From positions 1-64,000 of the forward strand of contig JAEURR010000008.1 in the NCBI GenBank assembly GCA_016788115.1: DNA of 64,000 nucleotides. The letters are read 5' to 3'. Positions within the stretch are counted from its first letter, which is position 1. Each line of letters begins with the position of its first letter. Below the pieces are notes generated by a model. The model made no database searches. It worked only from the letters and a program-made list of their open reading frames with translations, and was not told the origin of the DNA. Source of the stretch: Chthonomonas sp. (GTDB lineage: Bacteria > Armatimonadota > Fimbriimonadia > Fimbriimonadales > Fimbriimonadaceae). A program made the position numbers and the translations under genes. This document shows, one piece after another, positions 10,641 through 64,000 of the stretch.

Positions 10641-10711
10641 GTTCCTGCTAGAAATACGGGTTTTAGGCCACGAAGTGGATGATCCCCGCAAATGCTCCAG
10701 ATGACACGAGA

Positions 10712-10743: not shown

Positions 10744-10762
10744 CATACGATCGCGTTTGGTC

Positions 10763-12256: not shown

Positions 12257-12405
12257 AAGGGTTCAGGACTCCTAAGCTGGGACGTCGTCAGCGGCGACCG
12301 AGTTCGAAGAAAGTGTGCGCGATTCCAGCCACCGCTACTACTGACAAGGATACCCGTCCACTAGTCTATTACTTGCGCATACGGTGCATGAATTCCCACA
12401 AATGA

Positions 12406-13704: not shown

Positions 13705-13767
13705 GGGATCAGTGTACATTGATTTAGTTGCAACAGCAAGCTCGAAAGCATGCGGGGCAGTCGCAGA

Positions 13768-45453: not shown

Positions 45454-45809
45454 CGGCGGGGTAGCTCGCACGTACGGGTTCCGAACCACTTGAGCCGGTA
45501 GCGGTCTACGACGGCGTACCCGAGATGAATCAACTGGCGCAACCCGGGAACCCGCGCGAGGCTGTACAAGAGTCGCAGGGGCCAAGGAGCGATGCTGAGA
45601 AGCTTGATCCAGGCGTCCCCGGCCGTGTACACCCGGTCCGCTTCTAGAACCATGGCGCCGGTGTCGTAGCCTTTATCTTGCGCTTCTGCGGATTGGAGCG
45701 GCATGGCCACGAGTTCTTGGCCATACCGTTTCGCCCAGCGCTCGGCGCGCAACTGGCTGGTGTGGCACAAGTTGCATCCTCCGTCGTAGTAGAGTCGCCA
45801 GGGGGTCAT
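45444..45809 (-). CDS. DCC-family thiol-disulfide oxidoreductase-like protein (DUF393)
   Basis: 121 residues from ATG 45809. The N-terminus WRLYYDGGCNLCHTS has the D-G-x-C-x-x-C motif of the DCC/DUF393 group, which has a thioredoxin-like fold. The rest is helical with a late RYRLKWFG segment. Function in bacteria is not established. A longer upstream frame is ignored because it reads through the promoter side of the next gene. Confidence 0.8.
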   Translation of the reverse strand: MTPWRLYYDGGCNLCHTSQLRAERWAKRYGQELVAMPLQSAEAQDKGYDTGAMVLEADRVYTAGDAWIKLLSIAPWPLRLLYSLARVPGLRQLIHLGYAVVDRYRLKWFGTRTCELPRRQG

Positions 45810-45860
45810 GTCCGCTACCATTCTACGCCCGCGGCGCGGAGTCTGTCGTACAATGCCCTC

Positions 45861-46898
45861 ATGAGACTTGCCCTGCTGTCCTTGGCTTGCCTGATTCCAC
45901 TTGCTGCACGGGCAACACCCGTCTCCGATTTTCAGGGGGCTGTGGACTACGCCATGCAAGATCTGGCCTCGCCGTACACGATCTCGGGGTTCGTGAGCCA
46001 GACCGGAATGACGGACACCAACGATTTCGAGGCGATTGCCAAGCCAGCGGGCTCGTTGACGGGTACCGCGAGCCTGGCGACGCTGGCAGGGCAGCTTGGA
46101 CTAACCGACCAAGCGACGATGACAGGCACGGCGACGGGTAGCGACAGCATCAAGTGGATTTTGTCAGCCCCCACCGCGATCGGGAAGACGGTCAACGTCA
46201 CGGTGAATGGATCGACCGTGGCGGTCAAGATTACGGGAATCACCGGCGAACTCAACGGGCGGCTGACGAATATCGTGCCGATTCCGGACCCCAAGTCGGG
46301 TGTGGGCCGCAATGTCCGCATTGAACCTATCGCAGCAGGGCCGAATTTCGTCCAGGTGAAGGGTACGGTTTCGATCTTCTTTCCAGTTACGTACCGGATT
46401 GATCCTGCGGCGTACATCGGCTATGGCGGTTCGGGAACCGTAGTGTCCACCGTCTCGGGCACCGTATCGCTGGGGTCGATCGGGGCCGATAGCCCAGCGG
46501 GAAAGACGCTTACGCTCCAGTTCTTCGACGCTGGCTCGAACCTTGTCCGTACCGAGAACACACCCCTGAACGCGAGCGGAGGTTATTCGGTGACCGTACC
46601 GCTTTACGGAGACTATTCGGTAGTGGCGCGGGTGTCGCACTGGCTGAGTGCAGTGCACGTGAACAAGAGCGTGCGGACCGCGGCGACGCTGAACTACGCG
46701 ATGCTCAACGGCAACTGCAACGGCGATGATGAGATCGACTTCTTCGACTATCTCGCCATCAGCGCAAGTTACGATTCGAACGTCGGAGATCCGCAGTACT
46801 CGGCGAGCGCGGATCTGAACGAAGACGGCACGGTTGATTTGTTCGATTACCTAATCTTGAGCTCGAACTACGAGCAGTCTGGGCCAATTCCGCAGTGA
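45861..46898 (+). CDS. Secreted protein with dockerin-like tail
   Basis: 345 residues from ATG 45861, which begins a clean signal peptide MRLALLSLACLIPLAARA. The central part is beta-rich and unrecognised. The last 130 residues are the same tail as in four other proteins here: a beta-sandwich with VSHWLSAVH and two EF-hand-like loops followed by DFFDYLAI and DLFDYLIL. A TACAAT -10-like element lies eight bases upstream of the start codon, too close to be its own promoter with a long leader. It is followed by a glycosyltransferase gene. Confidence 0.8.
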   Translation: MRLALLSLACLIPLAARATPVSDFQGAVDYAMQDLASPYTISGFVSQTGMTDTNDFEAIAKPAGSLTGTASLATLAGQLGLTDQATMTGTATGSDSIKWILSAPTAIGKTVNVTVNGSTVAVKITGITGELNGRLTNIVPIPDPKSGVGRNVRIEPIAAGPNFVQVKGTVSIFFPVTYRIDPAAYIGYGGSGTVVSTVSGTVSLGSIGADSPAGKTLTLQFFDAGSNLVRTENTPLNASGGYSVTVPLYGDYSVVARVSHWLSAVHVNKSVRTAATLNYAMLNGNCNGDDEIDFFDYLAISASYDSNVGDPQYSASADLNEDGTVDLFDYLILSSNYEQSGPIPQ

Positions 46899-49550: not shown

Positions 49551-49624
49551 GCTCCCGTCGTCTAGCGGTTTAGGACATCGCCCTCTCACGGCGAAGATCG
49601 CGGGTTCGAATCCCGTCGGGAGTA
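49551..49624 (+). tRNA. tRNA-Glu (anticodon CTC)
   Basis: The acceptor GCTCCCG pairs with CGGGAGT (one G-U pair), the anticodon stem TCGCC/GGCGA holds loop CTCTCAC with anticodon CTC, and the T arm is CGGG/CCCG around TTCGAAT. CCA is encoded at 49625-49627. The gene is the likely integration target for the modules that follow. Confidence 0.95.
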
Positions 49625-49674
49625 CCAGCCTCTTTAGGTTCAAAATAGACCTGGAACCGAACGGGATTGGAACC
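49621..49674 (+). repeat. Island repeat copy A, at the tRNA-Glu 3' end
   Basis: A shortened copy of the repeat seen at 52154 and 60861. It shares GTACCAGC, then TTAGGTTCAAA, a GGTTC/GAACC hairpin and ACCGAACGGGATTGGAAC. The last part is an inverted match to the tRNA T arm just upstream. Confidence 0.6.
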
Positions 49675-49747
49675 AAAACATCCACTGATTTGCCCCTTAT
49701 GTTCTCTCTTGCTGGTCACCAAGTTTCGTAAATGACGAGAACGAGAT

Positions 49748-50854
49748 TCAGCTTTCCCTGACATTGTATTGGATGTCCTGCAGGTTAAACTCGCCGTAGA
49801 CGAAGTCGCCGGTCGGTGTTTTCCACATTGCCGTCCCGAGGCGCGCAACCACATGGCCGCTGAACTCAAGATAGTCAGACAAGGGGGTCTCCCACCTCGC
49901 TGGAGTAAATGACTTGCCATCTTTGGAGGAGAAGAGCCGATCGTCAGACGAAAAGTTAACAAGGTCACCAGATTCATTGAAATCAAGAACTGCCGAAACA
50001 GTTTGACCCGAGTTTGAATAGGTGCCCTTAATCTTGTGATCATCAATCACTTCCCACTGGATGTCTAAAAACGGTAGGGCACCCGGTGCTAATACGCAGA
50101 AGTCGTTGAGAACGGTAACCGTCTCGGATTGGTACATTTCTGGCCCTCGCGCATCGGTGACCAGAATAGCCGAGGCAAGTCTTACCCTCATCAGTGCCGA
50201 TGATCCCTCATATTGGTGAAATACATCAAATGGAACGCCGAACATCGAAGCCTTCATCAGAAACAAGCGCTTTGGATCCGCCACACGGTTGAGCTGAGTC
50301 ACTGTGAAGTCCATCCATCTGGCTGATGGGCCGCTTCGAATACGTCCCTTAAAGCTCGCTTGGAAGTTGTATACTCTGGGTTGCCCAACTGCTCCGGAAC
50401 GTCGAACGTACTTCTGCAGCGCAGGCGGCAAGTGAGCGAGGTCGGCTTCCTCCAGCAATCGTGGCTCATATCTCCTATCTATCTCCTGATCCACAGCTCG
50501 GCGAAACTCTGCTCGAAAACTCATTGGCCCCTCGGCGAAGAAACCATAGAGAGCACCGATCAGCAACAACATGTTGCCTATAGTGCCAACTTTGGCATCG
50601 CTCCACGAAGTCAGGATGACTCCCTGTGACACAAGGCTCGCCAAGATGCCAACCGCCCACCACCACCGAGGAAAGGCGTACATTCCCACGACCGAAGTGA
50701 GGATCAGAAGGCTTGCGACAAGCCAAACTGCACCCAGTGGCCTCGATATTGGCTGAACCAGGCCAGGAACGTTGGCAAGGCCAAAGCCTTTTACAAAGCC
50801 CATGAGATGAATAAGGCCATGTATGGCAATAATGATCGAAAAGGCAATCTTCAT
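49748..50854 (-). CDS. DUF6544-like membrane protein
   Basis: 368 residues. Four membrane helices fill the first 115 residues. A soluble domain follows, with ALQKYVRRSGAVGQPRVYNF and a late SDYLEFSGHVVARLGTA, in the style of DUF6544/DUF6920 proteins, which have no known function. It is the first gene of the module downstream of tRNA-Glu and appears more A+T-rich than the core genes. Confidence 0.7.
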   Translation of the reverse strand: MKIAFSIIIAIHGLIHLMGFVKGFGLANVPGLVQPISRPLGAVWLVASLLILTSVVGMYAFPRWWWAVGILASLVSQGVILTSWSDAKVGTIGNMLLLIGALYGFFAEGPMSFRAEFRRAVDQEIDRRYEPRLLEEADLAHLPPALQKYVRRSGAVGQPRVYNFQASFKGRIRSGPSARWMDFTVTQLNRVADPKRLFLMKASMFGVPFDVFHQYEGSSALMRVRLASAILVTDARGPEMYQSETVTVLNDFCVLAPGALPFLDIQWEVIDDHKIKGTYSNSGQTVSAVLDFNESGDLVNFSSDDRLFSSKDGKSFTPARWETPLSDYLEFSGHVVARLGTAMWKTPTGDFVYGEFNLQDIQYNVRES

Positions 50855-50890
50855 TGCGGGCGCTCCAATTTTCTAATCATCAAGAGTCAC

Positions 50891-52036
50891 CTAGGCTTCG
50901 AATAACACTTGCTCAACCGGGCGTCTAAGAGAAACTGGCGTCGAGGCAGCATAACCAAAACGCAACAGTAGTTCTGCAGCGCTCTTCCCGAGCCCAAGCG
51001 CCGATTGAAGTTGCGGCCGCAACGAAGTCGTTTCGATTGGCTGGTTGAGTAACGCAGACTTGATATTCAGTGAGGTCATCTTCAGAGCGAGACGCTCGTA
51101 CACCTGACCGGTCCGTACCCATTGTGTTCTGTCTTCGGACGTCGACGACGTGATGACGACAGCTCCAGACGAGCCAAGGAGCTTGCTGACGTCTGCTTCC
51201 GATTGGTTTGACGGTTTCGTCTTGGATACAAATAGCCGTCCTAGCCATCCAGGCAACACTGGGTTTCCTGAACAACTCGTGAAAAGACCGTCGTACGTAT
51301 CTAAGGCTTCACGTTTGTTGAATCGTAACCAACTGATCAATTCATCAACGAAAGCATGGTCAGCCCATTGGATTAGGTTTCCTTGGCCAACATAGTCTGC
51401 TGTGGTTTTCAAGACCGAATCATCTAGTATCCAAGATAGTCCAATCCCAGGTTCTAAGGGAATCGACTGCAACTGGTCAACATCCTTCGATGGCACCTTC
51501 TTGCCGTCGTAAGCAGACCGTGTGTTTTGACGCAGGGCAATAGCATCTACCAAGGCACTCGAGACGGCTGTATCGTCAGTGAGACTAACTGCGATATAGT
51601 CCGCGGAATCTGGATAAGTCACATGGCAAGAAAATCCTGTTGCACTTGCGCCAATGATGAGGTTTTCAAGGGCACAGCCCAGGCTCATCCAGAGTTCCCT
51701 ATCATTTGGATCAACAACTGGAAGACGCCTGCTGTAATCAGGATGAACTTCGATGGTTTTTTGTTTGACCGTGAACTTCCAAGGTTGCGAATTGTGGCTA
51801 CTAGCTGCCAACGTTGCGTAATGGACAATCTTCCGCATCTGAGCTTGCAAGTCATCGCTGCCCAGGAGAATGGTACGAGACCGCTTTGCGGGGCCGTCAT
51901 AGTCGAGCCACGGCCGTATATCAAAGAGTGTTGCGCCACTCAGAACCGTGATTCCGCTTGCTGTCGTCATTATTAGAAACTTGCGGCGACTGACCGTCGC
52001 AGGAGTCCCTTTTCCCATTGACTCAAATCCTCGCAT
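50891..52036 (-). CDS. Tat-exported nitroreductase-like (Acg-type) protein
   Basis: 381 residues from ATG 52036, with GAGGAG three bases upstream. A Tat-type signal has SRRKFLIMTTASG followed by a hydrophobic stretch. The body follows the Acg branch of nitroreductases: ATLAASSHNSQPWKF, LIIGASATGFSC and a C-terminal LLRFGYA segment. Acg-type proteins bind flavin poorly and some store FMN. Export of a nitroreductase-like protein is unusual, since most are cytoplasmic. The function is unknown. Confidence 0.72.
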   Translation of the reverse strand: MRGFESMGKGTPATVSRRKFLIMTTASGITVLSGATLFDIRPWLDYDGPAKRSRTILLGSDDLQAQMRKIVHYATLAASSHNSQPWKFTVKQKTIEVHPDYSRRLPVVDPNDRELWMSLGCALENLIIGASATGFSCHVTYPDSADYIAVSLTDDTAVSSALVDAIALRQNTRSAYDGKKVPSKDVDQLQSIPLEPGIGLSWILDDSVLKTTADYVGQGNLIQWADHAFVDELISWLRFNKREALDTYDGLFTSCSGNPVLPGWLGRLFVSKTKPSNQSEADVSKLLGSSGAVVITSSTSEDRTQWVRTGQVYERLALKMTSLNIKSALLNQPIETTSLRPQLQSALGLGKSAAELLLRFGYAASTPVSLRRPVEQVLFEA

Positions 52037-52121
52037 TGCTCCTCGATGAATGCTCTTGGCTCTGGTCCCGACAACCGCTTCGGCGGTGGTAGGGTGTCCA
52101 CACTCTATTATACGCACTTTA

Positions 52122-52147
52122 TGGGAGGATCGAGTTTGATCCTCCCA
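52122..52147. terminator. Perfect hairpin before repeat copy B
   Basis: TGGGAGGATC pairs with GATCCTCCCA around GAGTTT. It lies seven bases before repeat B and between divergently placed sequences; it may be a terminator or part of the repeat element. Confidence 0.5.
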
Positions 52148-52153
52148 AAGTCA

Positions 52154-52260
52154 GTCAAAAAGGTTCTAAGCGCGTACACTTCGGTGTACCAGCACCTTTT
52201 AGGTTCAAATCGCGATTTTGCTCAGGTTCAAAATCTGAACCAACCGAACGGGATTCGAAC
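52154..52260 (+). repeat. Island repeat copy B
   Basis: 107 bases, 11 mismatches from copy C by eye count and the same length. It contains a perfect hairpin GTACAC-TTCG-GTGTAC, a second hairpin GGTTCA/TGAACC, and ends CCGAACGGGATTCGAAC, an inverted match to the tRNA-Glu T arm. It separates the nitroreductase module from the two-component module. Confidence 0.8.
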
Positions 52261-52297
52261 TTGATCGACTATCAAGGGCGAGCGCGGCTGTTTCTTA

Positions 52298-53518
52298 TCA
52301 AAGTGCGTTCAATGTTAGGCACGCGCGGAACTTCCCGGAGTCCTCGGAAGCTTCTAACTGCCAGCCATTGACCCTGGCCACCTCGCGGCAGATGCGGAGC
52401 CCAAGACCGTTGCCCGCTAAGTGCGTGTTGCCATTTGAGGGATTGGTGAATCGCAAGACATAACCAGGTTCACTTTCGCTACTAGCCATTGAGATAATTG
52501 ATCCCGAAGGAGAGTGTTTGACGGCATTCTCCAGTAGATTCCGCAATAGAAGAACGAGATGTTCTCTTGGCGCTGTTAGGCAAAATCCGTTGGGAGTCTG
52601 GACATCGAGCGTGGTCTCTTTCAGTTCCATCAAGGGCCGTAGATCGACCGCAATCTCGTCGATGATTTTCCTAACATCAACGGGTTCGCGCGTAACATTT
52701 GAAAGAGTTTGGGAGAGCCCCTGGAGTGTCAAGACAGCTTCGGTCAGGTTCTTGAGCCGATAGACCTGCTTTTGAACCTCAACCAGCGTGGCCTCTAGTT
52801 CATCCTTGTTCTGTTCGCTTCCCAGAGCCAAGTCAAGCTTTAGGAGCAAGGAGTGGATCGGCGTTCGCAACTCATGGGAGAGCGACGCGTAGCTTTTGAT
52901 CCTCTCTTCGCTCTCAGTCCTCAAATCTTGGATAAGCGAGTTGAGGGTGTCAACCAAGTTAACGACTTCGCGGTCTGTTGATGGCGTGGAAACAGCAAGG
53001 TTCGGGTCGGTTCTAGCTCCGTTCACTCGACTTACCAGCTTTGAAATCGGCTTGAGCGTTGCTCCCACGAGGAACCACGCCCCTGCGCCATAAGCGATCA
53101 GCCCCAGCCCGGTGATGGCGAATGCTAGCCGCTTGAGATTGTCCGACGACTGCTTTTCGGGCATGACGAAGAGCAGGATTCCCTCGTCGAGAACCTGCTG
53201 TTGAGTACCTCTCCGCTCGTTGCCGGGGGAGCGGTGCCTGGACTCCCAGAGGACGTTGCCCGACCGGTCAACTAAAGCAGCACCCGCACCTAGGGTATCA
53301 AGGCCGCTCTGATCATAGAGCTCGGCGATTCGTGAACGAGGGTTCGAACCCTGCAAATCCCTCGCAAGCCGATTGAAGGCGCGCTTAGCAACCGATTTTC
53401 GCTCTTGCAGATTGCTTTGTTCCGAAACCAAGAGTAGCCCTTGCACTGACGCAATCAGAAGGGGAATCCCAAGGATCAGAACCAAGAGGGTCATCTTCGC
53501 CCGGAGCGACCTCAGCAT
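52298..53518 (-). CDS. Sensor histidine kinase
   Basis: 406 residues. Two membrane helices (about 9-30 and 130-155) bracket a small extracytoplasmic domain; a HAMP region follows. The phosphorylated His is in SYASLSHELRTP. The ATPase domain has the N-box LLRNLLENAVKHS and the G2 box GNGLGLRICREVA; the G1 box is weak. Its start overlaps the response regulator stop by seven bases. It probably senses an envelope signal and controls the divergent phosphoesterase operon. Confidence 0.93.
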   Translation of the reverse strand: MLRSLRAKMTLLVLILGIPLLIASVQGLLLVSEQSNLQERKSVAKRAFNRLARDLQGSNPRSRIAELYDQSGLDTLGAGAALVDRSGNVLWESRHRSPGNERRGTQQQVLDEGILLFVMPEKQSSDNLKRLAFAITGLGLIAYGAGAWFLVGATLKPISKLVSRVNGARTDPNLAVSTPSTDREVVNLVDTLNSLIQDLRTESEERIKSYASLSHELRTPIHSLLLKLDLALGSEQNKDELEATLVEVQKQVYRLKNLTEAVLTLQGLSQTLSNVTREPVDVRKIIDEIAVDLRPLMELKETTLDVQTPNGFCLTAPREHLVLLLRNLLENAVKHSPSGSIISMASSESEPGYVLRFTNPSNGNTHLAGNGLGLRICREVARVNGWQLEASEDSGKFRACLTLNAL

Positions 53519-54183
53519 TTCTTTGGTGACTCCTGAATTCGATAGCCCACGCCGCGATCTGTGAGGATCAGTTTGCCGCTTGCCCCCAGTTTCTTGCGCA
53601 AGCCGCTGACGTAGACATCAATTACCTTGTCGTCGTAGAAATCTTGCTTCCACACCTTCTGCATGATGCTCGCGCGGGAGACCGTTCGGCCCTTCCCAAG
53701 CATGAGGTGTTCCAGAAGCGCAAACTCAGTAGGTGATAGATCGACTACTTGATCTTTAACAAGCACCGTTCGCGCAATCTGATCCAAGGTGATTGAGCCG
53801 ACCGTGAGTGTCGTGGCTGGAGCCGCGGTACGCCGGAGGTTTGCTCGAACCCGAGCGAGGAGTTCTGCAACCTCAAATGGCTTCGGAAGGTAATCGTCCG
53901 CTCCGGCATCCAGGCCAGCTACTTTGTGCTGGAGTTCGCCACGGGCAGTGAGGAAGATGATCGGAACGAGGTTGCCCTGGGCACGGAGTTCTCGGCAGAT
54001 TGCTAAGCCATCGACCCCCGGCAGCATGATGTCGAGAAGGATCAGGTCATAGGCGGTCGAGGTTGCTCGAGCGAGCCCTTGAGTCCCAGTCGTGGTGACT
54101 TCCACCTCGAATCCGTCGGCAGACAGCGCGGTTGCCAACGACTGACATACGCTTACCTCATCCTCGACGACCAGAATCTTCAC
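53512..54183 (-). CDS. OmpR-family response regulator
   Basis: 223 residues. The receiver has the acidic pair VVEDEVS, phospho-acceptor Asp in LILLDIMLPG and Lys in DYLPKPFE; the winged-helix output ends with VYVSGLRKKLG and DRGVGYRI. It is paired with the kinase downstream and divergent from the operon at 54281. A palindrome lies in the gap between them. Confidence 0.95.
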   Translation of the reverse strand: MKILVVEDEVSVCQSLATALSADGFEVEVTTTGTQGLARATSTAYDLILLDIMLPGVDGLAICRELRAQGNLVPIIFLTARGELQHKVAGLDAGADDYLPKPFEVAELLARVRANLRRTAAPATTLTVGSITLDQIARTVLVKDQVVDLSPTEFALLEHLMLGKGRTVSRASIMQKVWKQDFYDDKVIDVYVSGLRKKLGASGKLILTDRGVGYRIQESPKKC

Positions 54184-54222
54184 CTATATGTGTTGACGGT
54201 TTCGCCATCGAGCGGTTCGCTT

Positions 54223-54240
54223 GGTTAGAGTTTTCTAACC
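54223..54240. promoter_or_regulatory. Candidate operator between regulator and phosphoesterase operon
   Basis: GGTTAGA and TCTAACC form a perfect 7-base inverted repeat around GTTT, in the 97-base divergent gap. Size and place suit a regulator binding site; binding by the adjacent regulator is inferred. Confidence 0.5.
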
Positions 54241-54280
54241 TTTCCGAACTAGGAAAGGGCTGATCCGTCTTTTGCTGTTG

Positions 54281-55783
54281 ATGGAAAAGTTGAGCATATT
54301 GGGTATTGCCCTGCTGGTTACAGGCGGCGTTTTTGTACAAGCGACGCAACAAGAAAAGCTGGAACGGCGCGGCGGGCAGAACTCTGGACGCTCCAGGGAC
54401 TATCCCTTGCCTACGAAGGCATGGGCTGAAGGCTCAATCATTCAAGGGAATGTGACGAACTCCTCGGCGGAGTTCGCGATCCACTTCAAGAGCGATGCAG
54501 AAGCTACGATCGAGTACGGTACAATCGGCAATCCTTTCCCTCAGAAGTCTCCCCAATTCTCCCTCAAGGCAGGAGTTCCGTTTCAAACGAAACTAACCGG
54601 CCTCAAGCCAAGCACCGCTTACTCCTATCGACTTCGCTTCACGAAAGCGGGGGAAGGTGCCTCGGAGACCAGCCCGACCTACCGAATTCAAACTCAGCGA
54701 AAGCCGGGCGAGGAATTCATGTTCTTTGTTCAGGGCGATTCTCACCCAGAGCGAACTCCCAAGATGCACATTCCAGCCCTGTACGAGCGCATCTTGTTGA
54801 CTGCCGCAGCTCAAAACGCAGACCTCTACATTTGCCTCGGAGATGACTTCAGCGTTGACACTTTGCGTGAGCGAACCAAAGAGACAGTGGAAGGAGTTTA
54901 TACAAAGCAGGTTCCTTATTTGGGGTTAGTTGGGCACTCCGCACCGATCTACTTGGTGAACGGGAACCACGAGCAAGCTGCAAAAGCGAACCTCGATGGG
55001 ACCCCGGATAGCCTCGGAGTTTGGACGCAGAACGCCCGAAACAGAAACTTTGTCCAGCCCGCTCCAGACGGGTTCTTCTCCGGCAATACCGAGCCGGTGG
55101 AGTACATTGGTCTGCTCCGAAACTACTTCGCATGGACGTGGGGCGACGCCTTGTTCGTCGCGATTGACCCCTATTGGCATTCCGCTTCCGTAGTCGATAA
55201 CACGGCTGGGAAAGGGCCAAAAGACGAAGGGGGCGGAAAGCGCAATCGAAACCTCTGGGACATCACGCTTGGCGAGGCTCAGTACAAGTGGCTTACCAAA
55301 ACTTTGCTGGAAAGTAAAGCAAAGTACAAGTTCGTTTTTGCTCACCATGTGAACGGAACCGGGCGAGGCGCGATTGAAAACGCGACGCTCTACGAATGGG
55401 GCGGACGCGACCCCCGAGGCGGCGACCTCTTCAAGACCAAGCGTCCGGGTTGGGATTTGCCCATCCATCAACTCTTTGTCAAAGCGGGCGTCAGCATCTT
55501 CTTCCAAGGTCATGACCACATTTACTGCAAGCAAGAACTGGATGGCGTGATCTACCAGTCGTGCCCGTGTCCCGCTGATCCAACCAACAGCCTCATCAAC
55601 GGCGACGCGTATCGCAGCGGCGAGAAAGTTCCGGGCGCGGGTCTCGTCCGAGTCACCGTCGGCCCAAATCAAGCGAAAGTGGACTATGTCCGCGCTTACG
55701 AGCCTGCCGCAGAAGTGGATGGCAAGAAGCACGGCGAAATCGCCCACACCTACTCTGTGAAACCCAAAGGAGCATCGAAATGA
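54281..55783 (+). CDS. Secreted purple acid phosphatase-like metallophosphoesterase
   Basis: 500 residues from ATG 54281; TTG 54272 is an alternative with better ribosome-site spacing. A signal peptide is followed by a Gln/Arg/Gly-rich stretch (about 28-45), then a fibronectin-like beta-sandwich with LTGLKPSTAYSYRL. The metallophosphoesterase domain has the full set: QGDSHPE, LGDDFSVDT, NGNHEQ, AHHVNG and QGHDHIY. This is the order of purple acid phosphatases and PhoD-like enzymes. It probably hydrolyses phosphate esters outside the cell. Its stop overlaps the next start (ATGA). Confidence 0.88.
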   Translation: MEKLSILGIALLVTGGVFVQATQQEKLERRGGQNSGRSRDYPLPTKAWAEGSIIQGNVTNSSAEFAIHFKSDAEATIEYGTIGNPFPQKSPQFSLKAGVPFQTKLTGLKPSTAYSYRLRFTKAGEGASETSPTYRIQTQRKPGEEFMFFVQGDSHPERTPKMHIPALYERILLTAAAQNADLYICLGDDFSVDTLRERTKETVEGVYTKQVPYLGLVGHSAPIYLVNGNHEQAAKANLDGTPDSLGVWTQNARNRNFVQPAPDGFFSGNTEPVEYIGLLRNYFAWTWGDALFVAIDPYWHSASVVDNTAGKGPKDEGGGKRNRNLWDITLGEAQYKWLTKTLLESKAKYKFVFAHHVNGTGRGAIENATLYEWGGRDPRGGDLFKTKRPGWDLPIHQLFVKAGVSIFFQGHDHIYCKQELDGVIYQSCPCPADPTNSLINGDAYRSGEKVPGAGLVRVTVGPNQAKVDYVRAYEPAAEVDGKKHGEIAHTYSVKPKGASK

Positions 55784-57120
55784 TCAAGATCAACTCATTC
55801 CCAACCCTCGTGACGGCCCTTTTCGTAGGCTCAGGCGTCGCCGGAGCCATATATGCCCAGGATGCGAAGGCACGGGCGGCGGAAGTGGACAAGTCCTTTT
55901 CGCCATTCGCACCCGGTGTGAAGACTCGCTCCGATGACAAGAACTTCTACGTGGAATCCAACGGCCTGCCCGACCACGAGATGATGACGGGAATCACCGC
56001 CTGGCAACAGCAAGTTCCGCTTCCTCAAAAGTACACCGGAACCAACGCCTGGCTGTTTCCACTCTTCCCGGTTCCCGCAAAAGAGCCGATGAGCGCGAAG
56101 ACGAACTTCTTCCGTGGAGCCATCGCTATTGCGGCCAACGGAGTGCCGATCTTCAACCCGATCAAGAACGACGGTCGCACGGATACATTCCTCGCAGGAG
56201 AGCTTGACAAGTGGGGCGGGCATAGCGGTCGAGGGGACGACTATCACTATCACATCCCGCCGCTAATCTTGCAGCAAAAACTCGGGAAGTCACTTCCGGT
56301 TGCTTACGCGCTCGATGGATACGCGATCTACGGGCTTACTGAGCCTGATGGGACGGTTCCCAAGGACTTGGACAGTTTCAACGGTCACGAGACTCGCAAA
56401 CTCGGATATCACTACCACGCGACGAAGACGTATCCGTACCTCAACGGAGGCTTCCATGGCGAAGTAGTCGAAAGGGGTGGGCAGGTCGATCCCCAGCCTA
56501 GAGCGACCAGTCCCCGCGAAGCGACATCCCCTTTGCGTGGAGCAATAATCACTGGCTTCACTACTCTTGAAAAGGGAAAGAGGTACTCGCTGACCTACAC
56601 GATTGACGGTCAGACAAGCAAGGTCAACTACCAAATCAACGCCGATGGCAGCGTGAAGTTCGACTTCGTTGATCCGTCAGGCAACGTCAAATCCGAGACT
56701 TACAAAGGTCGAGCTGAACGTGGCGGAGGCGGGGGGCAAGGGCGTCAAGGTGAACAGGGGCGCGGAGGCCAACTCGGACCGCCACCCGGACCGCGTAAGC
56801 CGTGGTTTGTCGACCACGCGAAGGGTCTTGATGCCAACAAGGACGGAGAAGTCTCTAAGGCAGAAGTCACCGATCAATGCAAAGAGGCGTTCAAGGGTTA
56901 CGCGGGCACATCGGATTCCATCAAGGTAGGAGACCTGCCCAACCTGCGCACAGTTCGGAATGAGATCGGCGGGTTCATGAAGGTACATGCAAAGGAGCTG
57001 GATCAGAACGGCGACGGGAAGATCACCGAAAAGGAGACTATCGACACGATGCTCCGCATGTTCGACAAGCAAGACAGGAATGGAGACGGAAAGCTATCGG
57101 GAACGGAGTTGGAAGGATGA
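55780..57120 (+). CDS. YHYH-domain protein with C-terminal EF-hands
   Basis: 446 residues with a signal peptide (1-27). The YHYH domain has RGDDYHYHIPP and a second HYHATKTYPY. A Gly/Gln/Arg-rich linker (about 315-345) leads to two or three EF-hand loops (DANKDGEVSKAE, DQNGDGKITEKE, DRNGDGKLSGTE). YHYH proteins are of unknown function and bind metals by their histidines only as a guess. It overlaps both neighbouring genes by four bases. Confidence 0.85.
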   Translation: MIKINSFPTLVTALFVGSGVAGAIYAQDAKARAAEVDKSFSPFAPGVKTRSDDKNFYVESNGLPDHEMMTGITAWQQQVPLPQKYTGTNAWLFPLFPVPAKEPMSAKTNFFRGAIAIAANGVPIFNPIKNDGRTDTFLAGELDKWGGHSGRGDDYHYHIPPLILQQKLGKSLPVAYALDGYAIYGLTEPDGTVPKDLDSFNGHETRKLGYHYHATKTYPYLNGGFHGEVVERGGQVDPQPRATSPREATSPLRGAIITGFTTLEKGKRYSLTYTIDGQTSKVNYQINADGSVKFDFVDPSGNVKSETYKGRAERGGGGGQGRQGEQGRGGQLGPPPGPRKPWFVDHAKGLDANKDGEVSKAEVTDQCKEAFKGYAGTSDSIKVGDLPNLRTVRNEIGGFMKVHAKELDQNGDGKITEKETIDTMLRMFDKQDRNGDGKLSGTELEG

Positions 57121-58478
57121 GGATTTCAGTTCTCAGCGGAATTCTCCTCGGAGCGGCATCGATCACTGCCTTTACCATGCAGGGGCGGCAAGATGGAGGT
57201 CAGCGGCAAGGTCCGCCAGCTCCGATCTACCGGACAGAAGTTCCGGTCAGCGAACTCGATGTTATCGCCGGAGCAACCACCGACAACAGCATCATCTTGA
57301 GTATTCGTGGCAAAAGCGAACCAACTCCCGCGCTAGTTATTCGTGAGGGCGGTAAGACTATCCCTTGCCCCAAAGTCACCCTGTCCGGTGGGAAAGCGGT
57401 CGAAGTTTCGGTGAAGGACCTCAAAGCAGGAACGACCTATGAATACACCCTGACTCAAGGAGCGTCGAAGGTTGAAGGGCGGTTTACGACGGCTCGGAAG
57501 ACTGGGCAAGATTTCACATTTGCCATTCAAGCCGACAGTCATCTGGATGGGAACACTGACCTGAAAGTGCTGGAGCGAACCCTCGACAACATCGTCAAAG
57601 ACAAGCCGGACTTTCTTGTCGATCTCGGCGACACCTTCATGGTGGACAAGTATCCGAACTTCAAGGATGCGGCCAAGCAATACGACGCCCAGCGCTACTG
57701 GTTTTCCCGCATGGGATCGCAGATGTCGGTCTTTCTGTGCCTTGGCAATCACGACGGTGAAGTCGGCTGGCCGGGACGCGGCGGCGAAGACATGGCATCA
57801 TGGGCTCGAGAGCAACGGGAAGCGATCTTCCCCGTGATTCGCCCGAACGATTTCTACTCCGGTGCTCCCAAGAAGGGCCTCTGGTATTCGTGGAATTGGG
57901 GCGACGCGACGTTCATCATCCTCGATCCATTCGTTGCCACCACCAGAAAAACCCGAGGTGATGAGGATGGTTGGAACTGGACGCTGGGAAAAGAACAGTT
58001 CGATTGGTTCGCCAAGACGCTCAAAGAATCAAAGGCGAAGTTTAAGTTCGTTTTCATCCACCACCTTGTGGGTGGCTTTGGGGGTGCAGAAGCCCGGGGC
58101 GGTGTCGAGGCCGCAGACCGCTTCGAGTGGGGCAACAAGGAGGAGTTCCCTGCTCAACGCAAAGGTTGGGCTGAGCCCATTCATGCCCTGATGGTCAAGT
58201 ACGGCGTGACCGCCATGTTCCACGGGCATGACCACCTCTACGTTCGCCAGGAGAAGGATGGGGTGGTGTATCTCGAGGTTCCTCAGCCTGGCCATCCTAG
58301 GGACAACGCGATTGGGAGTGCTGAGAAGTATGGTTACAAGTCCGGAACTATTCTGGGAAGCTCGGGCCATATCCGGGTAACCGTCGGGCCAAATGCTGCC
58401 AAGCTGGATTACGTCAAATCGCTTTCAGGGTCGGAGAACGGCAAAGTTGTGGATAGCGTGGAGGTTAAGGCGAAGTGA
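57117..58478 (+). CDS. Second secreted metallophosphoesterase
   Basis: 453 residues. Signal peptide, then QGRQDGGQRQG (about 22-32), then a beta-sandwich domain with KDLKAGTTYEYTL. The catalytic motifs are QADSHLDG, LGDTFM, GNHDGE, HHLVGG and GHDHLY. It is of the same broad family as the 54281 protein but clearly a separate gene with low overall similarity. The stop overlaps the next start (GTGA). Confidence 0.88.
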   Translation: MRISVLSGILLGAASITAFTMQGRQDGGQRQGPPAPIYRTEVPVSELDVIAGATTDNSIILSIRGKSEPTPALVIREGGKTIPCPKVTLSGGKAVEVSVKDLKAGTTYEYTLTQGASKVEGRFTTARKTGQDFTFAIQADSHLDGNTDLKVLERTLDNIVKDKPDFLVDLGDTFMVDKYPNFKDAAKQYDAQRYWFSRMGSQMSVFLCLGNHDGEVGWPGRGGEDMASWAREQREAIFPVIRPNDFYSGAPKKGLWYSWNWGDATFIILDPFVATTRKTRGDEDGWNWTLGKEQFDWFAKTLKESKAKFKFVFIHHLVGGFGGAEARGGVEAADRFEWGNKEEFPAQRKGWAEPIHALMVKYGVTAMFHGHDHLYVRQEKDGVVYLEVPQPGHPRDNAIGSAEKYGYKSGTILGSSGHIRVTVGPNAAKLDYVKSLSGSENGKVVDSVEVKAK

Positions 58479-59446
58479 TCCGTGCTGTCATGCTCGCCTT
58501 AATCGCATTACTCGGGCAGATTGCTTCAGCCCACGATCTGGATTTGACGCTGATCAAGGTGAACCGAGGGCAGACCAGCTCAACGATTCAAGTCATCACG
58601 CCCCTCAGTCGGCTGGTTCATACCGCTCGTTTGGGAGATCATCCATCCGCCCCGGCTTTGGACATGGCGGTTCGAGAACGGTTGAGATTCGGGGCAGATA
58701 CTCCGGCCCAACTGAACGCCAACAGTCAATCCGACACTCTGACCTGGTCTGTTGTAGTGGAGCACCAACCCAAGTTCAGTAGCAGATTTGATGAGTCCAC
58801 GCCATCAGCCCAAACTATTGTCGCAACCTACGAGAACGGTGCTCTGAAGTCCGAAGTTGTGCTCGAAGCAGAGAAACCACTGCCCACGGTCACAGGCATG
58901 CTTGGAACCGGCATCCACCACATCCTTTCGGGACTGGATCACATCTTGTTCGTGCTCGGCCTTGCCTTGCTCGGCGGCGGTTGGAAAACCATCCTCAAGG
59001 TGCTGACGGCATTCACAGTAGCCCACTCGGTCACTTTATGCGCTGCTGCAACGGGATTGATTCACGGAAACTCCCGGATTGTAGAACCGGTGATCGCCAT
59101 CTCTATTGTCACTTTAGCAATCGAATGTATGAGGCAATCAAAGAAGCCGGGCGACGACAACCTCCGGCTGAGGATAGCCATCGCTTTCGGGTTTGGGCTT
59201 ATCCACGGATTCGGATTTGCCGGAGGATTGATCGGGCTTGGGCTCCAAGGCAATCAGCTGGTGCGAAACCTCCTGTCGTTTAGCGTAGGCATCGAACTCG
59301 GACAGATTGCCATTCTCGTACCAGGGTTGCTGCTCCTGGTTCTGGTGTCGAGAGCGGGCAAAGAGCGAGCGCATATGTTCTCATTGGCTACCTCCGTCTG
59401 CGTCGGCATGATCGGATGCTTCTGGTTTGTGGAGCGTGTTCTTTGA
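58475..59446 (+). CDS. HupE/UreJ-type membrane protein
   Basis: 323 residues starting with GTG. A signal-like start is followed by a soluble extracytoplasmic region of about 110 residues, then about six membrane helices. HHILSGLDHILFVLGL and FGLIHGFGFAGGL carry the conserved histidines of the HupE/UreJ_2 family. Some relatives transport nickel or cobalt, but the soluble N-terminal domain and this gene context leave the substrate unknown. It is the only integral membrane protein of the operon. Confidence 0.82.
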   Translation: MIRAVMLALIALLGQIASAHDLDLTLIKVNRGQTSSTIQVITPLSRLVHTARLGDHPSAPALDMAVRERLRFGADTPAQLNANSQSDTLTWSVVVEHQPKFSSRFDESTPSAQTIVATYENGALKSEVVLEAEKPLPTVTGMLGTGIHHILSGLDHILFVLGLALLGGGWKTILKVLTAFTVAHSVTLCAAATGLIHGNSRIVEPVIAISIVTLAIECMRQSKKPGDDNLRLRIAIAFGFGLIHGFGFAGGLIGLGLQGNQLVRNLLSFSVGIELGQIAILVPGLLLLVLVSRAGKERAHMFSLATSVCVGMIGCFWFVERVL

Positions 59447-60129
59447 AGGCCATTGCACTATCCTCGTTGGCTGTCGCTGGGTTGCTGGCAATCGTGTGGG
59501 CGCAAGGCGGCAGGCAGAATGGTGTGGTCAAACCCGACCTTCGCGACACAGTAAAAGCCAGCATCTATGCGGACAACTGGTTTGTGCTCTACATCAACGG
59601 CAAGCAGGTCGCAGTTGACCCCATCGACTTCCTGCCTCACAACGTGGTCACGCTCGACATCCTGCCCGAATACCCAATGACTATTGCGGTGATGGCGATG
59701 GACAACGCCGACCCCAAGACCGGGTGCGAATACGGGACGAGCATCGGGGACGGCGGTTTCATTCTGAAGTTCGCCGATGGAACCGTCTCGAATGCGAGCT
59801 GGAAGGCGAAGTCCTTCTTCACTGGCCCCTTGGAGCGCAACACTGCCAACCCCAAGGTCGCCCGCTCCCAAATCCCGAACAAGTGGTTTGTCCCGAGCTT
59901 CGACGATTCCAGTTGGGGCAATGCGACCGAGTTTTCGGAGCAGGAAGTCGGTCCCAAGAAGACGTTCTATGACTTCGATTTCAAAGACGCCAAGTTCATC
60001 TGGAGCAAGGATCTTGCCCTGGATAACACGGTGATTTTCCGGACTCGCATCGAAAAGCCGGGGTGGAAGCCCCGGTGGACGACGAAGCCCGATCTCGACA
60101 TCAGCCGACCGAACGGCGGCAACGACTGA
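59443..60129 (+). CDS. Secreted protein of unknown family, beta-rich
   Basis: 228 residues from TTG 59443, which overlaps the stop of the previous gene as TTGA; signal peptide KAIALSSLAVAGLLAIVWAQ. The mature start is GGRQNG, then a beta-rich body with NWFVLYINGKQV and WFVPSFDDSSWGNATEF, like galactose-binding or sugar-binding sandwich domains. The tryptophans and Asp-Asp loops fit sugar or metal binding, but there is no firm match. Confidence 0.68.
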   Translation: MKAIALSSLAVAGLLAIVWAQGGRQNGVVKPDLRDTVKASIYADNWFVLYINGKQVAVDPIDFLPHNVVTLDILPEYPMTIAVMAMDNADPKTGCEYGTSIGDGGFILKFADGTVSNASWKAKSFFTGPLERNTANPKVARSQIPNKWFVPSFDDSSWGNATEFSEQEVGPKKTFYDFDFKDAKFIWSKDLALDNTVIFRTRIEKPGWKPRWTTKPDLDISRPNGGND

Positions 60130-60141
60130 CATAGGAAACAA

Positions 60142-60816
60142 ATGAAAAAGACACTCACAATTATCATCGCGCTGGTCGCGGTTTCATCATTCGCTTTCGC
60201 CCAACAAGGTGGCGGACAACGTGGCCAGGGAGGAGGCAAGGGACAGGGTCAAGGACAAAAGCAAGGCGGACAAAATCAGCGTCAAGGCGGTGGAAACGGA
60301 GCGGCGCGGCTGCTGGCAATGCCGAGCGTTCAAACCGAGCTAAACCTCACTTCCGACCAAAAGTCGAAAATCGCTGCATTGGTTCCTCAGCGCGGTCAAG
60401 GAGGCCAAGGTGGCGGGCAGCGTGGTCAAGGCGGAGGAGAGCAAGGTGCGAATCGCGCCAGCCAAGCAGACCTTGACAAAAAGCTCGCCGAGATTCTTGA
60501 TGACAAGCAGGAGGCTCGTCTTGCGGAACTCGTGATTCAGCGTGCAGGTAATCGAGCTGTGCTCGATGAAAAGGTAGCCACAAAACTCGCAGTGACCGCT
60601 GAGCAGAAGTCGCAGCTTGCTGCACTTCGGGAAAAGCAGCGAGCCGGTCGTCAACGCGGTGGCCAACAGGGCCAGGGAACAGATCGCGAAGCCGCCCGTG
60701 CTGCTCGCGAGAAGATGGAGAAGGAACTCGACACCGAGATCGGTAAGATTCTCACCGAGAAGCAAAAGGCCGAGCTGAAAACGCTCGGCGGCAAGCCGTT
60801 CAATTTCGATAACTGA
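60142..60816 (+). CDS. Secreted Gln/Gly-rich Spy-like protein
   Basis: 224 residues. A signal peptide (1-20) is followed by a dense Gln/Gly/Lys/Arg tract (21-53), then a helical part with ELNLTSDQKSKIAAL and LAVTAEQKSQLAALREK, two LTxxQ-like motifs of the CpxP/Spy family. Further GQGGQ tracts break the helices. CpxP/Spy proteins are periplasmic chaperone-like regulators that respond to envelope stress, including metals. An AGGAAACA site precedes the ATG. Confidence 0.75.
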   Translation: MKKTLTIIIALVAVSSFAFAQQGGGQRGQGGGKGQGQGQKQGGQNQRQGGGNGAARLLAMPSVQTELNLTSDQKSKIAALVPQRGQGGQGGGQRGQGGGEQGANRASQADLDKKLAEILDDKQEARLAELVIQRAGNRAVLDEKVATKLAVTAEQKSQLAALREKQRAGRQRGGQQGQGTDREAARAAREKMEKELDTEIGKILTEKQKAELKTLGGKPFNFDN

Positions 60817-60828
60817 ACCCTGTATCCG

Positions 60829-60865
60829 TTGACGGGCCCAAGAAAGCTCACCTTGGACCCGTCAA
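60829..60865 (+). terminator. Hairpin after the phosphoesterase operon
   Basis: TTGACGGG-CCCAAG pairs imperfectly with CTTGG-ACCCGTCAA over 13 of 14 positions. It has only a weak T run. It lies at the left edge of repeat copy C. Confidence 0.55.
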
Positions 60866-60967
60866 GAAAGTTCTAAGTGCGTCCACTTCGGTGTACCAGC
60901 ACCCCTTAGGTTCAAAGCGCGATTTAGCTCAGGTTCAAAAACTGAACCAACCGGACGGGATTAGAAC
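60861..60967 (+). repeat. Island repeat copy C
   Basis: 107 bases; same orientation as copies A and B, 11 mismatches from B. The hairpin GTCCAC-TTCG-GTGTAC has one mismatch here. The end reads CCGGACGGGATTAGAAC. It separates the phosphoesterase operon from the helicase-nuclease gene. Confidence 0.8.
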
Positions 60968-61007
60968 ATTTACGCCAAGGAAATGTCTCCAAGCGTGTGC
61001 GTTTGCG

Positions 61008-64000
61008 TCATCTCGGTAGCATAATCCGCCCTAACGACTCCTCGAACCGACCACTCCTTGTCGCCACTTGGATCACATTCATCACGTGAGAAGCGATTTC
61101 CGGTGTCACTCGCTCAAAGCCAAGACTGTTTGCCACGGGCTTGGCGATCTGCTCAGTGTCAACAGCAATCGAGTCTCGGAGAATCTCAGCTGCTGCTTGT
61201 TCAATTTCCTCTGGGGCAATTAGGTCGATCTTCTTGACCTGCGCAGGAAACTGCGAACGGCTACGGACTGCAAACTCGTTCTGGTTTGGCAGATAGACGA
61301 AGGGCTTCTTGAATTTGATCAGTCCCTGTCGCTCTGCAGCGCGCACCGCATCCTCAATGTGCGGCCTGATTTGGGAACCGGCTCGGCCCTTTCCAGCTGC
61401 CTCACGAATTCGACGTACCACCTCGTCAAAATGCACAGGTGCCTCGATCTCTGCGACCTTGCCGACAAGTCCGGCAAGTTGCCAGACGGGCGTTTCGAGG
61501 AGTTCGCGATCACGCGGCCAAGCCAGCGATGCGTAAGCATAGTCGGGCACAGTCACGCCGGTGCCGCTGGATTGCGCTAGTGACTGATCGCCTTCGTCGA
61601 GCGGGTCGTCCGATTGCATATCGTTGGGCGGTACGTACGCGGGTGATTGAGGGACGCCCTGAAACCCAAAAGACGCTTCAATTGCCTCGACGCATCGGTC
61701 TAGCTCACGCTCTGGGTGTCGCCACCAGTCGGTGCTCCAAATCCTGTGGATTGTCCAGCCGCGATCCTCTAGCACCTGCTGGCGAAGTCGGTCTCGGTCG
61801 CGAGCTGACTTCGCCGAGTGGTACACGCGACCATCGCATTCGATGCCTATAGAGTACTTACCTGGCTCCGCAGGATTGCGTACGGCAAGATCGATGTAGA
61901 AGTGCTCCGACCCCACCTGTTGGTCGACGTCGTAGCCACGGCTCCTCAACTGCGTGAAAACGCAGTCTTCAAAGTACGAGGGCTCGGGCTTGAGGATGGA
62001 CGGCATCGCATCCAGATGTCCTGACTCCGCGAAGGCAAGGAAGGTATGAAAGGCTCGAACCCCCTCGCCCTTGGAATCCTCCATTCGCATGTCGGCGGCG
62101 CGGAAGTTCGAGAAGACGACCGTGCGGATTCGTGCCCTGGTTATGAGTACGTTGAGTCTTCGCTCGCCCCCGTCACGATTCAAGGGCCCGAAGTTCATCG
62201 CTAGGAAGCCGTTCTCATCCCGGCCATAACCGACCGATATGTAGATGACGTCGCGCTCGTCGCCTTGAACCGTTTCAAGATTCTTGACGAAGAGCCTGTC
62301 CAAGCCATGCTGCTCGTCGAAGAGCCGAAGTGCTGGCTCCGTCTTTCTGGCTAGATCAAGCTGGTCTTCGATTGCGTCCTGTTGCGCTTTGCTGAACGCA
62401 ACAATACCAAGAGACAAGTTCGGCGACTGCAGGACGTGCTCGACCACAGCCTCGACCACGACCTTGGCTTCGAGTTCGTTTCTTCGTGAACCGCCACGAC
62501 CGTACACAGTCGACGGAACATGTCGGAACACTAGCCCCATTTCGCTGTCTGAACGTCGAGGGTGGGGAAAGATGACGAGCCGATCCTTGTAGAACAGGCG
62601 GTTCGATGTCGAAATGAGATCTTGATGTCGGCTGCGGTAATGCCAGCGCAAATCCCTTCGGTTTGACGACCCCTCAGGGATTCTCGCGGATGCCAGGGCC
62701 AGGATGCTCTCCTGCTCCCCGAGTGCCTGGGCTATGGCGTCATCTTCCTGATCTGGGTCGCCCTCATCCGACACCGTGATCCTGTCAAAGAAGCTCGTGG
62801 GAGGCATTTGTCTTGAGTCGCCGACGACTATCATTTGTTTGGCCCGGACAATGCTTCCAAGCGAGTCCTCCGGCTTGATCTGGCTCGCCTCGTCAAAAAT
62901 GACCACGTCGAAAGCGGGCCCCTCCGGCGGCAAGTACATGGCGACAGACATGGGGCTCATCAGGAATACTGGCTTGATCGCTTGGATTGCGGAGGGTGCT
63001 TCCTTCATAGCTGCACGAATAGCTTTGTGGCCACGCTGGCGGTTCATTTGAAGCAAGAGAAACCCCATTTCTCCAACAGCTTGTCCCCTCGGAACGGTCT
63101 TCCAATGTGACAGTGCGACCTTTGTGCGGTTGAGTTCGATCAATTGGCGATCCAAGGCTCGGAACGACTCGACGATTTCCTCATGTGTTTTGCGGTCGAA
63201 CTCTTGGAGCACAGGACGCGACTCCATCGCCTCGCCAAGCAAGCCGTTGTACCAAGCGCGACGGAACTCGCTCACCAGCCGAGACGTAGCGGGCTCCCAT
63301 GATTCAGCTAGGCGTGCCGCCTGCTCCATGCCGCCCTCGACAACCTGCCTTGACAGCATGTTGTATCGAAAATAGCTCTCTAAGTCATCGACATGAGCTT
63401 GCCACGCCCTTAGTCGCGCGTCCTGCAGGTCTAGCGATTGATCGAGAAAGGCTTCTCCTCCACCCTCTAGTTGAGCCCGTTCAGAAATGGCATCAATGAC
63501 TGCGGAATACGACTCTCTCAGTTTTCGCAGCTCTGAAAGTTGGTCAGTGAGGCCAGCCGGGCTGTCCCCTTTGCCGAAGAAATCCAAGATGCCAGAAGGC
63601 AACTCTCCAGAAGTTACGCGGCTTAGAAGGGCACTTGTCCAAATGATCACTCGGAGCATTTCGGGCCAGTCCGGCTGCACGAGCCTCTCAGAGCCGACGC
63701 ACTTTGCGAGGACTCCTTCTCCCTTCGCGTACTCCTCGGTCGCAGTTCTGTGCTGGCGGATGGCACGAATTCGACGCAACCGCTCAAGCCAGGTGATTCT
63801 TTCGCCGGTGGCTACAAACAGTCCATCAGCTCGTGCCCTCGCCGGCTCGATAGAGTCGACCATGAGGCGGTAGAGCCTTTCGTTAGCGTCACCGGTATCT
63901 GATTCGAACGCGCCTTGATCATGCAATTTGAGGACGGCTCGGAACTCACCCATCGCAGTTGTGCTCGCCGTCATCGCATCGCGCAGGAGGTCGGCAATCT
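61008..64000 (-). CDS. Large SF1 helicase with C-terminal nuclease, DUF4011/DUF3320 type (partial)
   Basis: At least 996 residues; the frame is open to the window edge, so the start and the Walker A motif lie beyond it. Helicase motifs seen are Walker B VVIFDEASQIKPED, VVGDSRQMPPTSFF, LETVQGDERDVIYISVG and RRLNVLITRARIRTVV. Then comes a Vsr/DUF559-like nuclease segment with QQVGSEHFYIDLAV, GIECDGRVYHSA and DRLRQQVLEDRGW, and a final helical domain of the DUF3320 kind. Such proteins occur in defence islands and may cut foreign DNA; that role is inferred. Confidence 0.85.
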   Translation of the reverse strand, partial: IADLLRDAMTASTTAMGEFRAVLKLHDQGAFESDTGDANERLYRLMVDSIEPARARADGLFVATGERITWLERLRRIRAIRQHRTATEEYAKGEGVLAKCVGSERLVQPDWPEMLRVIIWTSALLSRVTSGELPSGILDFFGKGDSPAGLTDQLSELRKLRESYSAVIDAISERAQLEGGGEAFLDQSLDLQDARLRAWQAHVDDLESYFRYNMLSRQVVEGGMEQAARLAESWEPATSRLVSEFRRAWYNGLLGEAMESRPVLQEFDRKTHEEIVESFRALDRQLIELNRTKVALSHWKTVPRGQAVGEMGFLLLQMNRQRGHKAIRAAMKEAPSAIQAIKPVFLMSPMSVAMYLPPEGPAFDVVIFDEASQIKPEDSLGSIVRAKQMIVVGDSRQMPPTSFFDRITVSDEGDPDQEDDAIAQALGEQESILALASARIPEGSSNRRDLRWHYRSRHQDLISTSNRLFYKDRLVIFPHPRRSDSEMGLVFRHVPSTVYGRGGSRRNELEAKVVVEAVVEHVLQSPNLSLGIVAFSKAQQDAIEDQLDLARKTEPALRLFDEQHGLDRLFVKNLETVQGDERDVIYISVGYGRDENGFLAMNFGPLNRDGGERRLNVLITRARIRTVVFSNFRAADMRMEDSKGEGVRAFHTFLAFAESGHLDAMPSILKPEPSYFEDCVFTQLRSRGYDVDQQVGSEHFYIDLAVRNPAEPGKYSIGIECDGRVYHSAKSARDRDRLRQQVLEDRGWTIHRIWSTDWWRHPERELDRCVEAIEASFGFQGVPQSPAYVPPNDMQSDDPLDEGDQSLAQSSGTGVTVPDYAYASLAWPRDRELLETPVWQLAGLVGKVAEIEAPVHFDEVVRRIREAAGKGRAGSQIRPHIEDAVRAAERQGLIKFKKPFVYLPNQNEFAVRSRSQFPAQVKKIDLIAPEEIEQAAAEILRDSIAVDTEQIAKPVANSLGFERVTPEIASHVMNVIQVATRSGRFEESLGRIMLPR

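Follow-up and report, generated by a model that had tools for sequence, protein, structure and literature searches.

The window analysed here is a stretch of 64,000 nucleotides from contig C8 of a 2.4-Mb Chthonomonas genome; related genomes that carry these genes belong to the Fimbriimonadales/Armatimonadota. This report concerns a unit of eight genes at positions 52298-60816 of that window (Table 1). Six genes on one strand follow one another head to tail (54272-60816) and encode two exported metallophosphoesterases (MPE1 and MPE2), a YHYH-domain protein with EF-hands, a HupE/UreJ-2 permease, a lectin-like protein (gene 5) and a Spy-like protein; a sensor histidine kinase and a response regulator are encoded divergently. 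An earlier note, made from the sequence alone, had described dense packing of the six genes, a divergent two-component system and a palindrome as their presumed control, and flanking repeats, and all three features are present in the sequence. Four junctions are 4-bp overlaps (ATGA, ATGA, GTGA and TTGA) and the fifth, between gene 5 and the Spy-like gene, is a 12-bp gap; the kinase/regulator pair is present, with two palindromes in the control region; and two repeats of 107 bp enclose the unit. In its closest relative (G023, from another genus), the first palindrome is kept imperfectly and the second is not kept. The best match of the response regulator is PhoB, and the best NCBIfam match of the kinase, below the cut-off, is the CztS/SilS/CopS heavy-metal sensor subfamily.

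Table 1. Features of the eight-gene unit and its surroundings (window positions)
Feature	Position	Strand	Remarks
tRNA-Glu (CTC), island anchor	49551-49627	+	first repeat copy, 49603-49672, overlaps the tRNA 3' end
Left cassette repeat, 107 bp	52154-52260	+	tRNA-Glu 3'-end-like; 38 bp outside the unit
Sensor histidine kinase (HisKA + HATPase_c)	52298-53518	-	divergent from operon; profile matches; 72% identical, same place in G023
OmpR/PhoB-class response regulator	53512-54183	-	divergent from operon; profile matches; 79% identical, same place in G023
Two short palindromes, GGTTAGAgtttTCTAACC and CCTTTCCgaactaGGAAAGG	54223-54240 and 54239-54258		divergent control region
MPE1, exported calcineurin-type metallophosphoesterase	54272/54281-55783	+	putative fibronectin-like N-domain; Q/G/R tract after signal peptide
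YHYH-domain protein	55780-57120	+	Gly/Gln/Arg linker; C-terminal EF-hand domain with three canonical loops
MPE2, second exported metallophosphoesterase	57117-58478	+	N-terminal Q/G/R tract
Anglerase-type HupE/UreJ-2	58475-59446	+	mature protein predicted to start with His-Asp-Leu; extracytoplasmic domain ahead of PF13795 permease
Gene 5, exported CBM67-like lectin-fold protein	59443 (TTG)-60129	+	modelled fold
Spy/LTXXQ-like periplasmic protein	60142-60816	+	two Q/G/R tracts; 69% identical in G023
Inverted repeat, 14-bp arms, possible terminator	60829-60865	+	directly 3' of operon
Right cassette repeat, 107 bp	60861-60967	+	90% identical to left copy; 45 bp outside the unit

A cassette in an island anchored at tRNA-Glu

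The flanking repeats are tRNA-Glu-derived and of the attachment type, and the eight genes between them form one mobile cassette in a serial island. Six copies of the repeat lie within C8:49603-73020, including further copies downstream at C8:66687, 70087 and 72945, and the last copy is followed by a gene that adjoins the tRNA-Glu region in a genome of the same genus (G001). With a repeat array, variable cassettes and a host gene that resumes after the array, the locus is an additive tRNA-anchored genomic island. Cargo of the other cassettes comprises a nitroreductase-like gene accompanied by one for a DUF6544 protein, a PDC-S37/Hhe-like helicase gene as a candidate for defence, and an arsR-arsD-arsA-phosphoesterase set. 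The same-genus genomes are without the eight-gene unit; its GC content at third codon positions (GC3) lies below that of core genes, and its similarity to another genus exceeds the similarity of the flanking genes to the same genus. A regex motif scan, which is a weak method and was confined to the island and its neighbours with the rest of the genome left unsearched, found no recombinase, tycheposon tyrosine recombinases included. Integron attC sites were considered for the 107-bp repeats and rejected on reading by eye, in that the outer arms run GTTCTAA...TTAGAAC rather than in the order RYYYAAC...GTTRRRY and the cassettes hold several genes each.

Several observations concern the surroundings of the unit. 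The tRNA-Glu hotspot, which here spans window 49603-64000 and continues to C8:73020 (L133 1-9020), is found throughout the family, in several genera, with structured repeats of about 100 bp between multi-gene cassettes (G001, G002, G003, G008, G023, G027, G031, G036 and G052). In the next cassette, the PDC-S37/Hhe-like DUF4011-helicase gene occupies two frames, window 61008-63974 and L133 1558-2643, about 1.6 kb apart, and is possibly broken by a frameshift. The arsenic set (L133 2813-6075) consists of an arsR-like gene, arsD, a double-domain arsA and a YfcE-like phosphoesterase gene, and G023 has a copy of it, 73-83% identical, close to its own tRNA-Glu array. Elsewhere in the window, secreted proteins encoded at 8996-13719, 18494-20350 and 45678-46898 have in common, as judged by eye, a C-terminal dockerin-like repeat, GDxNxDxxVDFFDYLxLSxxYE.

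Protein families of the unit

Pfam matches within the operon comprise Metallophos twice, YHYH with EF-hands, and HupE_UreJ_2. The two metallophosphoesterases score 34.0 and 49.2 bits against PF00149 (cut-off 21.5), and the metal motifs DxH, GD, GNH, H and GHxH, present in 45-48 of 52 members, fall in alignment columns that are invariant or nearly so; judged by these sequence features, MPE1 and MPE2 belong to the calcineurin-like metallophosphoesterase superfamily. The solved structures closest in sequence to the MPE profile are purple acid phosphatases (E 6e-8), and MPE1 scores 23.1 bits, under the cut-off of 30, against PF16656, the fibronectin-like N-domain of those enzymes. A canonical purple acid phosphatase was nevertheless rejected because the Tyr of GDxxY is absent, the consensus of the MPE alignment at this site being GDTFM. 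Some phosphoesterases at related loci in Planctomycetota and Verrucomicrobia (L066, L068 and L077) have EF-hand loops of their own beside the tract, and the EF-hand domain therefore seems to move between proteins of the module.

The YHYH protein is a member of PF14240 (42.7 bits, cut-off 25), and its residues H148, D153, D154, H156, H158 and D179 are invariant in 39 YHYH sequences. In proteins of this family a conserved His triad and an Asp have been predicted to bind Zn, which would make them Zn-dependent hydrolases, a prediction only (PMC7824862). The best structural match of the EF-hand domain is lanmodulin (8fns, Z 9.7 over 92 residues), with other EF-hand proteins at Z 6-7. Lanthanide binding by this domain was rejected: the likeness is topological only, the loops DANKDGEVSKAE, DQNGDGKITEKE and DRNGDGKLSGTE are of the calcium type without the Pro that lanmodulin has at loop position 2, and the NCBIfam LanM score is 17.1 bits, against a cut-off of 135. 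The searches brought up no solved relative of the YHYH core, but the EF-hand domain took up their match lists, and this absence is therefore no evidence for a new fold. In Verrucomicrobia subdivision 6 (L030, L032, L033, L035, L036, L038, L042, L043 and L073), a second YHYH/EF-hand protein, with the N-terminus HPGHEGD after a cleavage behind Ala, is encoded in tandem upstream of the module YHYH gene.

The HupE protein scores 153.4 bits against PF13795 (cut-off 24.5). Inspection and a heuristic predict a mature N-terminus HDL, behind Ala, in this protein and in its counterparts at L008, L009, L010 and L015. With PF13795 behind an extracytoplasmic domain that is predicted to begin with His, the protein has an anglerase-type metal-capture architecture; such domains on HupE/UreJ-2 permeases bind Cu/Ni with affinities of 60-220 nM, and metallophosphatases have been reported among the gene neighbours of Ang-2 (PMC12537917). 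The Spy-like protein scores 20.6 bits against PF07813 (Spy/LTXXQ), below the cut-off of 24.3.

Gene 5 has no match in Pfam, NCBIfam or PHROG. A model built from 29 relatives (pLDDT 84) superposes on the CBM67 of 3w5m (residues 166-299) with a VIA Z of 10.1 and a root-mean-square deviation of 3.4 over 120 residues, and on the Pleurotus ostreatus lectin with Z 9.4, both well above the rows of unrelated structures; the Foldseek E-value is weak on its own. The modelled protein thus has a CBM67-like lectin fold. The GC3 of gene 5 is 0.78, compared with 0.62-0.66 in neighbouring genes.

Recurrence of the gene families and of the tracts

When about 85,000 species genomes were scanned for the YHYH protein, 292 relatives came up, and the best 80 loci, which were used for all counts below that refer to loci, fall in Armatimonadota, Planctomycetota, Verrucomicrobiota and Acidobacteriota. 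The families that recur around them are MPE, gene 5 and a formylglycine-type sulfatase. Where at least 4 kb was available on both sides (39 loci), the same-strand neighbours within 4 kb of the YHYH gene included a sulfatase at 24, an MPE at 22 and gene 5 at 17, and none of these at 4. An ECF sigma/FecR-like pair accompanies 21 YHYH loci, mostly in Planctomycetota, and a divergent two-component pair accompanies 9. Among 251 Armatimonadota genomes, gene 5 is present in 10 and the YHYH subfamily in 15, and all 10 genomes with gene 5 have YHYH; among 199 Planctomycetota genomes, each of the two occurs in the same six; a search with a single YHYH sequence contributed to these counts. In several genomes gene 5 and the YHYH gene are distant from each other or on separate contigs. 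Moreover, in each of two genomes a single open frame encodes a complete metallophosphoesterase fused to YHYH, EF-hands and a Gly/Arg tract. Co-occurrence in four phyla together with this fusion led us to reject a chance neighbourhood. The complete eight-gene unit, in the same order, is found in G023, with products matching at 86% (MPE1), 83% (YHYH), 82% (MPE2), 59% (HupE) and 87% (gene 5). Mantel tests against YHYH similarity were weakly positive for gene 5 and the sulfatase and gave no signal for MPE, because MPE1 and MPE2 were mixed.

Tracts rich in Gln, Gly and Arg had been noticed in five of the six products of the operon. We measured the Q+G+R fraction over the 70 residues that follow the signal peptide, with signal peptides called by a simple heuristic, and compared it with 69 other secreted-like proteins from a 367-kb sample (about 15%) of the same genome, in which the median is 0.30 and the maximum 0.50. 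The Spy-like protein and the YHYH linker (0.90 each) and MPE1 and MPE2 (0.55 each) exceed this maximum, but gene 5 (0.35) lies within the background, so that the claim stands for four products and fails for the fifth. Nor are the tracts a general property of secreted proteins of this organism, as far as the 69 sampled proteins go. Neither of the two outcomes that the earlier note had named as refuting it, a lack of co-occurrence in other genomes and tracts widespread among the organism's secreted proteins, was seen, and its reading is partly supported. At the 80 loci of other genomes, 28 of 43 module phosphoesterases have an N-terminal tract, as do 20 of 225 other secreted proteins. A linker tract is present in 37 of 57 YHYH proteins, and 24 of 53 sulfatases have one that is internal or in the tail; the figure for other secreted proteins is 13 of 225. 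The net charge of the tracts is positive, and their recurrence across phyla in phosphoesterases, YHYH proteins and sulfatases fits the note's suggestion of a shared location or binding partner.

Possible functions and comparison with known systems

We tentatively propose, as a quite possible reading of the sequences, that the eight-gene unit is this genome's form of an exported, metal-dependent ester-hydrolase module found across phyla, with polyanionic glycans as its targets. Such a module would probably strip phosphate, and elsewhere also sulfate, from extracellular polymers. The gene content and order, the co-occurrence, the fusion, the folds and the limits of the cassette are shown, and both the gene set and the island have good support; we infer the substrate and the formation of a complex. 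The two-component system would sense conditions outside the cell, either phosphate or metal, and turn the operon on, and the products would be exported to the periplasm or cell surface. There the gene 5 lectin may anchor the set on a glycan containing deoxysugars or the like, and the positively charged Gly/Gln/Arg tracts may bind the polyanionic polymer or one another and so keep the enzymes together. MPE1, MPE2 and the YHYH protein, itself a predicted metal-dependent hydrolase, would take off phosphoester groups, the sulfatase of the relatives would also take off sulfate, and the EF-hand domain would bring calcium dependence. The anglerase-HupE permease would capture the transition metal that the metalloenzymes need, or clear its excess. 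The unit itself may have been gained by site-specific insertion at tRNA-Glu. The role in phosphate-ester or metal handling in the envelope at which the earlier note had guessed is consistent with this picture.

Several points weigh against the proposed hydrolase module. The genome has no PF00884 sulfatase, which most relatives have, and the sulfate part of the model is therefore not applicable to it; few of the relatives at large have HupE or Spy; and the unit holds no glycoside hydrolase, lyase or importer. The gene 5 profile matches rhamnosidases at E 0.21 (3w5m) and 0.024 (2okx), values that are weak and near noise, and the YHYH protein of the window is without the N-terminal His of most relatives. 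In addition, neither the co-occurrence counts nor the cross-phylum tract counts are corrected for common descent, and signal peptides for the latter were called heuristically.

The main rival is that the unit serves mainly transition-metal homeostasis or the response to metal stress in the envelope, a reading suggested by HupE, Spy and the kinase: the two-component system would sense metal, HupE would import it, the Spy-like and EF-hand/YHYH proteins would buffer it in the periplasm and the phosphoesterases would be metal-loaded clients. We regard this as rather unlikely. The HupE architecture, shared with the Cu/Ni-binding proteins that have metallophosphatase neighbours, the heavy-metal sensor match of the kinase, the presence of a Spy-like protein and the arsenic operon in a neighbouring cassette all speak for it, as does a mature N-terminal His behind Ala, predicted with heuristic signal peptides in 47 of 59 YHYH relatives, compared with 16 of 280 other secreted proteins. 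However, most relatives lack HupE and Spy, the core that recurs across phyla consists of sulfatase, MPE and lectin, metal homeostasis has no place for a lectin and sulfatases, and the best match of the regulator is PhoB.

It is less probable still, and in our view improbable, that the module acts on the glycan or matrix of the cell's own surface, remodelling it by removing phosphate or sulfate, instead of feeding on external polymers. The lack of an importer or glycosidase would suit such a role, and the lectin and the positive tracts would keep the enzymes at the surface; yet a patchy, horizontally acquired distribution is odd for maturation of the cell's own matrix, and the unit has no linked genes for glycan biosynthesis. 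The surrounding island, a series of cassettes whose cargo is unrelated, and a gene 5 whose GC3 differs from that of its neighbours, could also mean that accessory genes assembled here by accident, with no joint function. This is highly improbable and largely refuted by the recurrence of the same families together in four phyla, by the fusion protein and by the identical sets of genomes that carry gene 5 and YHYH, genes that are sometimes unlinked.

A bolder form of the hydrolase proposal, which we consider doubtful, is that of an undescribed, metal-dependent surface assembly found across phyla, in which a new lectin family (gene 5), a YHYH metallohydrolase, MPE and sulfatase would be joined by charged tracts and strip phosphate and sulfate from polyanionic glycans, with the complete regulated cassette moving between genera. 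If the hydrolase reading is right, lake and soil bacteria that resist cultivation would have a way, so far overlooked, of releasing phosphate and sulfate from polymers. The co-occurrence, the fusion and the fold give a testable context to YHYH and gene 5, and the recently described metal-capture permeases with an N-terminal histidine are now linked to metal-dependent exported esterases. The charged low-complexity tracts suggest a shared targeting or clustering tag on unrelated secreted enzymes.

The type of island is already known, whereas the gene module is apparently undescribed; the earlier note knew of no system with this gene set, and we likewise found no description in the open-licence literature. 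Additive flexible genomic islands with tRNA 3'-end repeats, of 20 bp at tRNA-Lys, are known in other bacteria (PMC10872708), and here too an array of tRNA-3'-end-derived repeats parts variable cassettes beside a tRNA gene; here, however, the repeats reach 107 bp with inverted ends and recur at tRNA-Glu in this Armatimonadota family. Purple acid phosphatases resemble the MPEs in the layout of a putative N-domain and Metallophos, whereas the MPEs have DxH in motif I and are without the metal-binding Tyr of GDxxY (GDTFM in MPE2, GDDFS in MPE1). With the anglerases (Ang-1/Ang-2) on HupE/UreJ-2, the HupE protein of the window shares PF13795, an extracytoplasmic domain and a predicted N-terminal His kept in relatives, although the rest of the gene set is absent from that report and YHYH is unmentioned there (PMC12537917). 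The calcium-dependent, rhamnose-binding CBM67 of the Streptomyces avermitilis alpha-L-rhamnosidase (3w5m) and the Pleurotus lectin share their fold with the gene 5 model over about 120 residues, whereas gene 5 is a stand-alone secreted protein with sequence similarity near noise. Finally, the conserved His triad and Asp of the YHYH family (PF14240), phage tail versions included, are also found in the window protein, which differs in being exported and cellular, with an EF-hand domain and a low-complexity linker, and in its coupling to MPE and lectin.

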